DNA of 64,000 nt, taken from positions 62,001 to 126,000 of the forward strand of contig JAHDBJ010000002.1 in the NCBI GenBank assembly GCA_020630435.1. Direction: 5' to 3'. Origin of the DNA: Saprospiraceae bacterium. GTDB taxonomy: Bacteria > Bacteroidota > Bacteroidia > Chitinophagales > Saprospiraceae. A program made the position numbers and the translations under genes. Shown here in pieces: positions 46,084 through 50,462 of the stretch; positions within the stretch are counted from its first letter, which is position 1, and each line of letters opens with the position of its first letter. The notes beneath the pieces are model-generated. The model ran no database searches. It had not been told where the DNA came from and worked only from the letters and a program-made list of their open reading frames with translations.

Positions 46084-46716
46084 TTAGTAAGCTACAGCAA
46101 TAACACCATTTCCAATGACTTCGACAGGGACTGAACCCTGAGACATACTAGCAAACAAGGCTCTAAATTCTACACCTATTTTTTTAGTCGTATCCCCCTC
46201 TTCATTTAATTCATATTCTTCAATATCAAAGAAATGAAAATAACTATCGCCTGTTTGAGGTGTTAATGTAGACAAAGAACCTAAGACAGGGTCATTAATT
46301 TCTAAAGTAATAACGGGAATTTCAGAGCCAGTATTTGTACCAAAACTAATAGGTCGTTCACGTCCATAGCAAAATAGGAATAATAAATCATTAAATTCTT
46401 CTTGTGTAGTACTGCCTGTTACAACATATGAATGTTTTAAATTAAAAGATATACTTAAATCTGAAGATTCGGCATCGTCAATTTTTTTAAGCTCACTTTT
46501 ACTCTGATAGTCCCCTTCCATAGCAGATATTAAGTTGGAAAACATGAAATAATCTTCTTCCCCTGCAATGATTTTATGCGGAATACCAGCTATAGATAAA
46601 TCCAATAAAAAAACAGGTTCAGTTTTCTCTTCAGGTAAAGGTATTGCACCGTCAGAACAAGCTAAGAGCATAATAGCTATGAATGGGAAAAATGAAATTT
46701 TGTAGTTAAAACTCAT
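46084..46716 (-). CDS. hypothetical lipoprotein in the sigma-factor operon
   Basis: This 210-aa protein has a signal peptide and lipobox LLAC (Cys20). The rest is beta-rich with no family I recognise (for example VFLLDLSIAGIPHKIIAGEE and SDLSISFNLKHSYVVTGS). Its start overlaps the upstream barrel-fusion gene by 11 bp, so it is the third gene of the ECF-sigma operon. A surface or periplasmic partner of the barrel protein is a reasonable guess. Confidence 0.75.
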   Translation of the reverse strand: MSFNYKISFFPFIAIMLLACSDGAIPLPEEKTEPVFLLDLSIAGIPHKIIAGEEDYFMFSNLISAMEGDYQSKSELKKIDDAESSDLSISFNLKHSYVVTGSTTQEEFNDLLFLFCYGRERPISFGTNTGSEIPVITLEINDPVLGSLSTLTPQTGDSYFHFFDIEEYELNEEGDTTKKIGVEFRALFASMSQGSVPVEVIGNGVIAVAY

Positions 46717-48160
46717 AGTTTAAATATAGTTGTAAGTTAATTTTCTGTTCAAATGGTATTTTGGGATTGGTGATAGGGGGAGTTATGGTGAATAGATCCG
46801 CATCAAAAAGTTCAGCTTCTATAGCGTTATTGGGTAGTTTGTCCTGTTTTAAAAAATTGATGAAACTATAATTTAGTCCTATGCCCAAATCCCAGTTATT
46901 AAAAACGGCTCTTTCATATCTAAATAATAGACCTGCATCAAATTTGCTATATAGTTCGTCAGCATTAAATGTCTCTCCATTTACTTGAATGGTGCTTGAC
47001 GTTATAAGTGGGGTGGAGGTATCTAAATAATCACTTTCAAGGACATTGTATTTCAAGTTTTGGTAGAATATATAAGTAACAAATCCTCCAATCATAAATT
47101 GATGTTTAGCATTTGGTTCATACTGTAGAGCTAAAGGCAATTGGAGAGAATGAATAGAAGTATTATGTTGAGGAATATAATAGGTTGTTTTTGAACCAAA
47201 ACTAAAACTTTTGTCTTGAATGACTTCTTGCAAATTAGCAATAAATCGCTTTTTTTGGATATAGTTAATTTCGGTGTTAAGGGCTAATTTCTTACTTATT
47301 GGAAAACTTATACCTATACCTGTATAAACACCAGTAAGTAGACTACCATTACCTCTATTGTATGCGAAATTTGTTCCACCTTGTACAAACCATTGTAATG
47401 GCTTATAATGATATTTATTTGCAGTCATGGCAATGAAGCCAGGACGATTTTCTAGGAATTTATCAGTACCATGAGGTAGTTGATTAGGTATGCTAATCGC
47501 TTGGGTTTGTTCTTTAACCTTTGTTTCTTCTGTTTTGAGTTTTTGGGGATCAGTAGCTTTAACTGAAACGTTATGCGTTAGAGGTAAAGATGTTATTTGA
47601 GTATTATCAATTGTTTTAGTTGTTTTAGGCGAAATACGATTTTGCTTAAGAATATAATTAGAATTCTTACTTATGAAAGTATTATTGTCTGTAGATTGAT
47701 TCGGAGTAGAAAAAGATTGTTTTTTATAAATGTCTAAATTAGACGTTATTATTGGAAGTGTTGATGTTTTAGATGATGCTTTCAAGCTAGAATTAATGGC
47801 TGGTAATGCTGTTTTTTTTAATTTGGGAAGTGTTTTTTTTGTATTAATGTTTGGTGTTTGTGAAAAGGTGTTTTGCTTTTGTTTGCTTGGTTTTACAAAT
47901 GGAGTAGGAATATTTTTTTCAACTAGATGAGTATTAGTCGAAGTACTATTATTAAAATTAGAATAGATACTTATTCCTCCTAAGAATAAAATACCTATCA
48001 ATAGTAAATACCACCAAATAAATCTCCTTTTTTTAGATGGTTTATTGTCAGCTTGATCAAGCAGTCGCTCTGCCTCTTCCCAAAAGGCTGGCTGTGCTTC
48101 GAAGTGTCGTTCTTCTAGCTTTTTTCTAAAAAACCGATCTAAATCATCTCTTTTATCCAT
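46706..48160 (-). CDS. anti-sigma-like N-terminus fused to outer-membrane beta-barrel
   Basis: This 484-aa protein starts with a charged cytoplasmic-type helix (DDLDRFFRKKLEERHFEAQP; AFWEEAERLLDQ), as in anti-sigma factors. A membrane span is at about 46-66 (FIWWYLLLIGILFLGGISIY). A long Ser/Thr/Asn/Lys-rich linker covers about 70-245. The last 240 aa form aromatic-rich beta strands ending in a typical barrel C-terminus (INLQLYLNYEF). It overlaps the ECF sigma gene by 8 bp. Inference: it holds the sigma factor and links it to the outer membrane. Confidence 0.75.
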   Translation of the reverse strand: MDKRDDLDRFFRKKLEERHFEAQPAFWEEAERLLDQADNKPSKKRRFIWWYLLLIGILFLGGISIYSNFNNSTSTNTHLVEKNIPTPFVKPSKQKQNTFSQTPNINTKKTLPKLKKTALPAINSSLKASSKTSTLPIITSNLDIYKKQSFSTPNQSTDNNTFISKNSNYILKQNRISPKTTKTIDNTQITSLPLTHNVSVKATDPQKLKTEETKVKEQTQAISIPNQLPHGTDKFLENRPGFIAMTANKYHYKPLQWFVQGGTNFAYNRGNGSLLTGVYTGIGISFPISKKLALNTEINYIQKKRFIANLQEVIQDKSFSFGSKTTYYIPQHNTSIHSLQLPLALQYEPNAKHQFMIGGFVTYIFYQNLKYNVLESDYLDTSTPLITSSTIQVNGETFNADELYSKFDAGLLFRYERAVFNNWDLGIGLNYSFINFLKQDKLPNNAIEAELFDADLFTITPPITNPKIPFEQKINLQLYLNYEF

Positions 48161-48743
48161 TACTTATCCTTTTTCCGTAAAGTTTGTTTTTTTGATTTAA
48201 TTGTTGATTAATTAGTTGCTTTAATTTATTTCTAGCTGTTGAAAGATGCCATTTAGATGTACCTTCACTAATACCAAGCATTTGGGCGATCTCTTTATGA
48301 CTATAACCATCTATTGCAAATAGATTAAAGACTTGGCGATTCATAGGGGGTAATGTATGAATCATTGCTTCAATCTGTTGAGCATCAAATTTTTGTTCTG
48401 CTGCATTAAAATCTATAGGTTCACGATAACTTTCAGGACTTTCAAAATCTGTATATGAAATAGTTTCCCTTTCTTTTTTATACTTTCGATATTCATCAAT
48501 CAAAGTATTAATCATTATACGTTTGGCCCAAGCTTGGAATGGGATTTTGGAGGAATACTTTTCCAAGTTAGTTATTATTTTTAGAAATCCCATATTCAAA
48601 CTGGCTACAGCTTCGGACTCTTCTCTTTTATACCGCATACAGATACCCATTAGCATAGAGAAGCAAACTTTATAAAGTTGCAACTGTGCTTTCCGATCAC
48701 CATTACGGCAATCTTTTAAGAGTTGGGTACTAATACTTTTCAA
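48153..48743 (-). CDS. ECF-type RNA polymerase sigma factor
   Basis: This 196-aa sigma-70 factor has region 2 at about 20-95 (LYKVCFSMLMGICMRYKREE; FQAWAKRIMINTLIDEYRKY) and region 4 at about 130-185 (LPPMNRQVFNLFAIDGYSHK; EIAQMLGISEGTSKWHLSTA). It has no C-terminal extension. It is the first gene of a three-gene operon with the anti-sigma/barrel fusion and a lipoprotein. ECF factors of this layout usually answer to the co-encoded membrane protein. Confidence 0.92.
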   Translation of the reverse strand: MKSISTQLLKDCRNGDRKAQLQLYKVCFSMLMGICMRYKREESEAVASLNMGFLKIITNLEKYSSKIPFQAWAKRIMINTLIDEYRKYKKERETISYTDFESPESYREPIDFNAAEQKFDAQQIEAMIHTLPPMNRQVFNLFAIDGYSHKEIAQMLGISEGTSKWHLSTARNKLKQLINQQLNQKNKLYGKRISNG

Positions 48744-48820
48744 AAATGTTTTTACTTTATTAAATATCTATTAATATACGTACCTAGTATGAACTTTTGT
48801 TGCTTATAAACAACGATTTA

Positions 48821-49600
48821 TTATTCTCCATCATTTCCATAATTTAACTTCATATCTAGCCCCCAGTTAAATTTTATTGAAATAGGGAGGTTGTCTAAAT
48901 TATATTTATACTCAGCAATACAAGGTTGACAAAGGATATCAATCCCAACCAAATAGTCATTCCGATCAACTTTAGTTATATTATTTTTACTCCAATTAAT
49001 AGGATCGGAGATGCCTGTTGGAATTTCTTTTTTATAATTTATTTTATCATCATATTCATAAAAGAATTCATGATCCAATTTCCCTTTTCCATTATAATAT
49101 TCAGACCTTTTTATATTACCATTACTCCAATAATATTTTTCAATTGAAGTATATTCTTGTGTGATTACAAAATATGTTGACTTTTTCTTAATCCGATTTA
49201 TATTATCATACTCATATTCATAAATCCATGATAAGGGTAAATTTTCTCCTGAGTTAACTGAAAAATTATAAATAGCATGAATTGTTCCATTTTCATTGTA
49301 AACGATAGAGTCACGAAAAATTAATTTGCCGTTGTCTTTTCGATAAGTATGATATACATTTAACCTAGAATCTTTATAATTCAGGGTATATTCTTTACCC
49401 AATGAATGGAAATTTTCAATCCTATTTAGTACGCCATCTGACGAATAGGTATGATTTTCTATCCAGCTTTCATCCTTATTTTTATATTCAATTGAAATCA
49501 ACCTATTACCAGAATAGTGTTCAAATCCATTTTCTGTAGAGCAAGAGAAGATAAAAATTGTTAGACTTAGACTTACAATTATTTTTAGTTTATTTCTCAT
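48821..49600 (-). CDS. lipoprotein with YD/MORN-like repeats, function unknown
   Basis: This 259-aa lipoprotein has signal peptide and lipobox IFSC (Cys20). The mature part is built of short repeats with aromatic residues and G/N/D turns (for example YYWSNGNIKRSEYYNGKGKL; WIYEYEYDNINRIKKKSTYF), similar to the YD-type or RHS-like hairpins common in Bacteroidota exports. Its last bases are Gly-Asp-Gly-Glu. No partner is evident; it stands alone. Confidence 0.75.
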   Translation of the reverse strand: MRNKLKIIVSLSLTIFIFSCSTENGFEHYSGNRLISIEYKNKDESWIENHTYSSDGVLNRIENFHSLGKEYTLNYKDSRLNVYHTYRKDNGKLIFRDSIVYNENGTIHAIYNFSVNSGENLPLSWIYEYEYDNINRIKKKSTYFVITQEYTSIEKYYWSNGNIKRSEYYNGKGKLDHEFFYEYDDKINYKKEIPTGISDPINWSKNNITKVDRNDYLVGIDILCQPCIAEYKYNLDNLPISIKFNWGLDMKLNYGNDGE

Positions 49601-49859: not shown

Positions 49860-50462
49860 ATGATATATACCTTGCCCTTTATTGCGGCAGCTATTGGATG
49901 GTTTACCAATTACTTAGCAGTAAAAATGCTTTTTCATCCGAAGAAGCCTATCAATTTATTGGGATTTACCCTACAAGGGATTTTCCCAAAGCGACAGGTA
50001 CTCATTGCACAAAAAATAGGAAAAGTAGTGGCAGATGAACTGTTGACGATGGATGATATAAAAAAAAGAGTAGTAGATGAAAAAAGCATGAACACTATTT
50101 ATAAGAATGTAGCAGAGCGGATGGATGGTTTTTTAGAAGAAAAAGTTGGTAAAGCCATGCCTCTAGTTGCACTCTTAACACCCCAACGAATGAAAGATAG
50201 AGTTCGAGATGAAATTTTGAAAGAAGTTAAAATCCAATTGCCTAAAATGGTCGATAAATATATGATTTATGTTGAGGAAACTCTTGATATTGAAGAAATG
50301 ATAAGTGATAAATTTGCTCAACTCTCTACTGATAAATTAGAAACGGTTCTAAATAATATACTCGCCAAGGAATTTCGGTTTATCGAAATTATAGGAGCTA
50401 TTATTGGTTTTATAGTAGGTTGGATACAGATTGGTTTACTTGTCTTAGGAGGAAATCTATAA
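49860..50462 (+). CDS. DUF445-family membrane protein
   Basis: The 200-aa protein opens with the DUF445 signature FIAAAIGWFTNYLAVKMLFH, then RPFFPKRQ-like GIFPKRQVLIAQKIGKVVAD, a helical cytoplasmic or periplasmic region, and a C-terminal span (IGAIIGFIVGWIQIGLLVLG). DUF445 proteins are membrane-anchored with unknown role; this one is of the short form. An upstream overlapping frame was rejected in favour of this one. Its transcript ends in the 15-bp stem terminator at 50463-50498, which is a copy of the tRNA-Gln terminator. Confidence 0.88.
   Translation: MIYTLPFIAAAIGWFTNYLAVKMLFHPKKPINLLGFTLQGIFPKRQVLIAQKIGKVVADELLTMDDIKKRVVDEKSMNTIYKNVAERMDGFLEEKVGKAMPLVALLTPQRMKDRVRDEILKEVKIQLPKMVDKYMIYVEETLDIEEMISDKFAQLSTDKLETVLNNILAKEFRFIEIIGAIIGFIVGWIQIGLLVLGGNL

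Follow-up and report, generated by a model that had tools for sequence, protein, structure and literature searches.

Three tightly packed genes lie on the minus strand of the window (the whole 64,000-nt stretch of DNA analyzed, from a Saprospiraceae genome), in the order ECF sigma factor, fusion protein, and putative lipoprotein. The fusion gene is directly behind the sigma gene and overlaps it by 8 nt; the end of the fusion gene overlaps the third gene by 11 nt. A preliminary description had placed an operon of an ECF sigma gene and a fusion gene at 46706-48743. The coordinates are right, and the operon stands for these two genes, but the third gene at 46084-46716 (minus strand) had been overlooked. 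The features of the locus are as follows.

48772..48803, minus strand: candidate ECF-type promoter GCAAC-N18-CGTATATTA preceding the sigma gene; it departs from CCAAC-N17-CGTA, the consensus among relatives, by one base and by one position in the spacer
48153..48743, minus strand: ECF sigma factor gene, 196 aa, TTG start (Pfam Sigma70_r4_2, E 7e-15; TIGR02937; alignment of relatives)
46706..48160, minus strand: predicted Dma-type anti-sigma/outer-membrane barrel fusion gene, 484 aa (Pfam, hydropathy, AlphaFold2, VIA-align)
48023..48160, minus strand: putative cytoplasmic anti-sigma domain, residues 1-46, with helices at 3-17 and 24-39 (AlphaFold2, conservation)
47951..48034, minus strand: predicted membrane helix, residues 43-70 (hydropathy, AlphaFold2)
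47411..47950, minus strand: predicted disordered tether, residues 71-250, rich in T/K/N/S/P (pLDDT under 50)
46709..47410, minus strand: predicted 8-strand outer-membrane beta-barrel, residues 251-484, last residue F (PF13568, AlphaFold2, Foldseek, VIA-align, strand alternation)
47195..47206, minus strand: [FYW]xFG motif, here FSFG, residues 319-322, between strands 3 and 4 (loop 2) (alignments)
46084..46716, minus strand: third gene, 210-aa putative lipoprotein (lipobox LLAC, profile family, Pfam scan, structure model)

The sigma factor passes the cut-off of TIGR02937 (87.3 vs. 42.9 bits) and is under that of TIGR02985 (67.4 vs. 126.4 bits). Its class is assigned at the level of the ECF superfamily, from a set of family models that includes TIGR02937 and holds no ECF21 model. 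Identity to 15 aligned relatives ranges from 28% to 58%. A gene for a 259-aa putative lipoprotein without a Pfam match (48821-49600, minus strand) separates the sigma gene from a divergent membrane-protein gene at 49860. The lipoprotein gene looks inserted because at a locus from the same genus (L007) the sigma gene directly adjoins a divergent gene similar to that at 49860.

Conservation of the Sigma Factor and Fusion Pair

With the fusion protein as query, 15 of 60 genomes, including the window's own, have a match at E 0.001, and an aligned sigma gene is directly upstream of the fusion gene in all 15 loci from these genomes. Genome contigs were also scanned with the sigma alignment; this gave at least 593 relatives, of which the best 80, mostly from Saprospiraceae or other Bacteroidota, were kept. 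Six of these 80 loci extend no further than 280 nt past the sigma stop codon and were left out of the downstream count. At each of the 74 loci with more than 280 nt downstream, an ORF of at least 100 aa directly follows the sigma gene; the median gap is 1 nt and the ORF is within 50 nt in 70 of 74. The pairing is beyond what is expected by chance. After removal of six fusions cut by a contig end, 68 complete downstream ORFs align with the fusion of the window, for an alignment of 69 rows.

Across these 69 homologues, 118 to 304 residues separate the membrane helix from the barrel (median of 198), and the tether is more variable in length than the barrel (coefficients of variation of 0.19 vs. 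0.08). A hydrophobic peak of KD ≥1.4 is near the N-terminus in 66 of 69; the exceptions are L090 (1.39), L095 (1.11), and L092 (a peak of 2.17, but only beyond the first stretch). By eye, the first 60 residues of the 570-aa fusion of L092 (5564-7276, plus strand) seem to carry two copies of the N-terminal sigma-binding-like motif. At E 0.01, PF13568 matches only 42 of the 69 homologues and PF13505 matches 18. A scan of the phylum with the fusion profile has matches in 46 of 148 genomes at E 1e-8, a figure not taken as a count of such proteins because in many rows the match is limited to the barrel or to the N-terminal half.

Predicted Domains and Fold of the Fusion Protein

An AlphaFold2 model of the fusion, computed from the 69 aligned sequences (mean pLDDT of 67.6, pTM of 0.54), predicts four regions. 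Residues 1-46 have the highest mean conservation and the tether has the lowest; W27 in the N-terminal domain is conserved in at least 90% of rows, and this domain matches none of the Pfam or NCBIfam models. A single hydrophobic segment exceeds KD 1.4 (peak at 47-65, KD 2.21; the next best, further on, reaches 0.89), and the charges of a KPSKKRR stretch directly before it suggest that the N-terminus is inside. Nearly all of residues 72-250 have a pLDDT below 50. The linker spans ∼180-190 aa, close to the ∼175-aa low-complexity linker first described.

Eight main strands are modeled within residues 256-483, with pLDDT values of 78-98 in most strands and 47-64 in parts of two loops. PF13568 (OMP_b-brl_2) covers residues 276-437 (E 4.4e-9; 37.1 bits vs. 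a cut-off of 27), and the best Foldseek matches of the fusion (E below 1e-4) are mostly OmpA, OmpW, and OmpX. In VIA-align comparisons, the barrel matches the transmembrane domain of OmpA with Z 16.9 (2.6 Å over 134 residues) and OmpA, OmpW, PagL, and OprF-N as a set with Z 16-17.5, while the soluble 8-strand barrels YceI, NHBA, and PsbO have Z ∼9.4-10.6. Hydrophobic alternation across the eight strands is 2.68, relative to 1.30 (sd 0.36) in shuffled strands (p 0.0002). A soluble C-terminal domain was rejected on the basis of fold comparison and strand alternation. If the barrel follows standard topology, both its ends would face the periplasm and loop 2 would face outward.

The topology proposed in the preliminary description, an anti-sigma-like helix followed by an inner-membrane helix, a linker, and an outer-membrane barrel, is supported by structure prediction, fold comparison, and conservation beside the sigma gene. 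The structure prediction proposed there for the barrel yields an 8-strand OmpA/OmpW-like barrel and not a soluble periplasmic C-terminus.

Candidate Promoter

A CCAAC-N17-CGTA dyad recurs upstream of the sigma genes. Exact copies, all at a spacing of 17, precede 22 of 79 genes (the window included), and dyads with at most one mismatch and a spacing of 16-18 precede 40 of 79. Across 200 shuffles, there were at most 2 exact and at most 9 one-mismatch dyads; the dyad had been selected for being the most frequent of many candidates in the very sequences later used for counting. Judged from sequence, it looks like a self-acting ECF promoter, and it is apparently a new feature. For the window itself, the site is an imperfect dyad (GCAAC-N18-CGTA) and weak. 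At no more than one mismatch and a spacing of 16-18, the dyad is found in 1 of 15 relatives (L007) and in 1 of 7 sigma/fusion paralogues of the window's own genome. By eye, a site like GCAACCTTTT, followed at a distance of 17 bases by CGTG, is upstream of the sigma gene of paralogue L117 and resembles the promoter dyad with two mismatches. The only perfect copy of the extended GCAAC-N18-CGTATATTA pattern in the genome is that of the window. A search of the genome for a regulon with the promoter pattern gave 7 sites relative to 6 in a reversed control and was dropped.

Third Gene

Sixty-seven loci had enough DNA for the third gene to be counted (L043 was dropped). An ORF on the same strand is next after the fusion in 65 of these, and in 56 of 67 it belongs to one family with the window's gene. 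Membership was decided with an iterated profile whose input was these sequences themselves (worst E of 3.7e-40), and phmmer with the window's third protein alone already finds many members (e.g., E 1.2e-18). Starts were placed too far downstream in some loci, such as L049, L052, L055, L062, and L068. The claim that an outer-membrane signal would reach the sigma factor without a separate receptor is not established: in 56 of 67 loci the fusion gene is followed by that of a conserved lipoprotein, which may be a second component.

In an alignment of 35 of 57 family members (L075 was dropped), the lipobox Cys20 is invariant in all rows. A Pfam scan of the 35 members (E 0.01) found nine families, led by PKD_4 (21 of 35) and PKD (18 of 35), and no match for the window's protein. 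The middle (PKD) part of most homologues is absent from the window's protein, as it is from those of L018 and L039. NigD and DUF4943 were considered as identities for the third gene and rejected, as neither matched any of the 35 members in the same scan. Some third-gene proteins are longer (533 aa in L022 and 453 aa in L072), and that of L072 matches parts of the lipoprotein profile twice. The structure model of the window's protein is all-beta (pLDDT of 79.7) and has no clear known fold. Foldseek gave no match to it at E ≤0.001, and VIA-align ranked mycobacterial LpqH first (Z 8.1; 3.2 Å over 112 residues), at a level the tool calls uninformative. In the window's own genome, 150 of 225 candidates were scored and, among the matches listed, only the third gene of the window matches with both end parts; nearly all others match PKD only. 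As a conserved partner, the third-gene lipoprotein is apparently a new feature.

Barrel-Loop Motif

Presence of the [FYW]xFG motif in loop 2 correlates with that of the third gene. The motif is in 46 of 57 fusions with a third gene and in none of 11 without (Fisher p 4.6e-7, ignoring ancestry). The pattern was picked after this first alignment had been viewed. In a second set of 26, composed of 20 loci and six paralogues from the window's genome, the motif is in 4 of 5 fusions with a third gene and in 0 of 21 without (Fisher p 3.3e-4, again ignoring ancestry). A genome of the same genus (G001) has neither. On a quick sigma tree of 94 rows, the third gene needs 8 changes and the motif 14. A test corrected for this tree has just two supported independent pairs; on average the motif agrees in direction in 1.7 of the 2, and in neither does it ever run opposite, with a median p of 0.5. 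Because there are only two such pairs, ancestry can still account for the link. The occurrence of the loop motif only alongside the third gene, as read from the alignments, is apparently a new feature.

Additional Copies in the Genome

A profile search and reading of the places found seven more sigma genes in the same genome, with a long ORF behind each of them (L114 to L120). The L114 protein is over the PF13568 cut-off, and those of L115 to L119 have weak matches to barrel families that are below cut-off in that scan; at L115, the match exceeds the cut-off once in-frame neighbors are added. The lipoprotein family follows none of the six barrel-type paralogues (L114-L119). The seven further sigma/fusion pairs in this genome are apparently a new feature. 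At L120 (2217-5464, plus strand, contig C23), the sigma gene is followed by a gene for an 857-aa protein with an N-terminal membrane segment, CarboxypepD_reg domains, and no barrel match, possibly an anti-sigma factor with a different outer part. The genome also has an unfused counterpart (L124:832-3155, minus strand, contig C50), with genes for a sigma factor, a 287-aa membrane protein, and a separate 289-aa PF13568 barrel protein.

Comparison with Described Systems

In FecA/FecR-type and PUL-linked pairs, an outer-membrane event is relayed to an ECF sigma factor via an inner-membrane anti-sigma factor, and a TonB-dependent protein of its own serves as the outer-membrane receptor. The sigma factor of the window differs from those of such pairs in being below the TIGR02985 cut-off.

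A close counterpart is Dma2 of B. thetaiotaomicron. The published excerpts describe an N-terminal anti-sigma domain, a transmembrane helix, a long disordered tether, and a C-terminal barrel, encoded beside an ECF21 sigma gene within a three-gene operon, and report that das2 is upregulated in a dma2 deletion (PMC13088901). The window has all four parts, the adjacent ECF sigma gene, and a three-gene operon, in a comparison made by published description and not by sequence. It differs in being in a Saprospiraceae genome and in having a third gene of another family. Dma3 of the same species, as excerpted, shares the tethered-barrel idea and has a sigma domain fused at its own N-terminus (PMC13088901), whereas the sigma factor of the window is encoded by a separate gene.

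EcfO-Reo of Bacteroides fragilis and Phocaeicola vulgatus is alike in that, by description, a sigma gene is followed by that of a large anti-sigma factor predicted to reach across the periplasm to an outer-membrane barrel (PMC13114119, PMC9308784). Reo is said in the available excerpts to span all five compartments and to be a likely sensor of outer-membrane stress, and BcpT and Bd-A are given as inducers (PMC13114119). BamA is said, also in excerpt, to be inhibited by bacteroidetocin A. A 2022 study of P. vulgatus, as excerpted, reports that inactivation of the homologous anti-sigma factor turned the regulon on and that the sigma gene was upregulated 33-fold on toxin exposure (PMC9308784). 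The EcfO-Reo regulon, in these excerpts, includes nigD lipoproteins and O-antigen length; in contrast, the promoter pattern of the window gave a site count near that of its control. Architecture in which a tethered barrel acts as a brake on a sigma factor is therefore not new, as excerpts of these papers already describe it for Dma (B. thetaiotaomicron) and Reo, and the system of the window is an ordinary member of a recently described, unusual family. Within a library of open-licence papers, we found none that reports such a system together with a PKD lipoprotein or from Saprospiraceae.

Proposed Mechanism and Alternatives

Taken as a whole, the locus is very likely a Dma-type tethered-barrel anti-sigma system beside an ECF sigma gene. 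Our confidence is high in the fusion architecture as modeled, good in an anti-sigma role of the fusion, and low in the trigger and mode of release, which are argued by analogy. Residues 1-46 would retain the sigma factor at the inner membrane, the periplasm would be spanned by the tether, and the ordinary barrel-assembly machinery would insert the barrel into the outer membrane. Going by relatives, the sigma factor would stay bound while the barrel is properly inserted. If outer-membrane integrity or barrel assembly fails, or if something acts on the barrel, the anti-sigma factor would be inactivated, probably by proteolysis, and the freed sigma factor would upregulate the operon that encodes it. 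The lipoprotein may act as a second component of the system or be one of the targets of this response. This trigger is proposed because of the distant relatives Dma and Reo, and self-regulation is proposed because of the dyad upstream of 22 of 79 sigma genes and the excerpted das2 result (PMC13088901).

A more elaborate scheme, which we regard as speculative, is that in Saprospiraceae and their neighbors Dma is a three-part envelope sensor. The lipoprotein of the operon would engage the [FYW]xFG motif of loop 2 and gate the sigma-bound tethered barrel, such that one chain reaching the cytoplasm would read both barrel assembly and lipoprotein delivery. About seven such chains with different barrels might work in parallel in one genome.

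Regulated proteolysis is common for anti-sigma factors, and the chain could instead be cleaved in the periplasm after export and barrel insertion, separating the anti-sigma domain from the barrel, with the cut or its absence as the signal. A disordered, poorly conserved tether suits protease access. However, 68 complete homologues retain the single-chain layout, with tethers no shorter than 118 residues, and a long tether is needless if it is always cut; we consider cleavage rather unlikely. The tether (∼191 residues) could also be a gauge of tension or distance that has to stretch to bridge the periplasm and thereby exerts a pull on the anti-sigma domain, with sigma release set by the width of the periplasm or by lift of the outer membrane. 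A worm-like-chain estimate gives 3.8-7.5 pN at 25 nm (persistence length of 0.8-0.4 nm; periplasm width assumed), the relaxed tether would measure ∼11 nm end to end, and the shortest tether of the 69 still has a contour of ∼42 nm. But the spread in tether length relative to that of the barrel is looser than a gauge would suggest, which leaves this explanation improbable.

Two further explanations would deny the fusion its role or its location. The lack of a model match for residues 1-46 would suit an outer-membrane protein with an unrelated N-terminal extension that is beside the sigma gene by chance. Against this, the pair is kept in 74 of 74 loci, W27 is nearly invariant, the N-terminal domain exceeds the other regions in conservation, and published homologues, as excerpted, act as anti-sigma factors; chance adjacency is thus very improbable. 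Least credible is a soluble periplasmic beta-barrel at the C-terminus. Soluble 8-strand barrels do match the model, but only at Z ∼10, and the higher scores of outer-membrane barrels, the strand alternation, the PF13568 match over cut-off, and the C-terminal F all argue for the outer membrane.

Implications

The studied examples in the cited papers, as excerpted, are from gut Bacteroides and Phocaeicola. A Dma-type tethered-barrel system beside an ECF sigma gene, as predicted here, has the same design and operon order well outside that group, and a single genome can have several copies of the design. The conserved lipoprotein and the defined barrel loop are candidate parts of the sensor.
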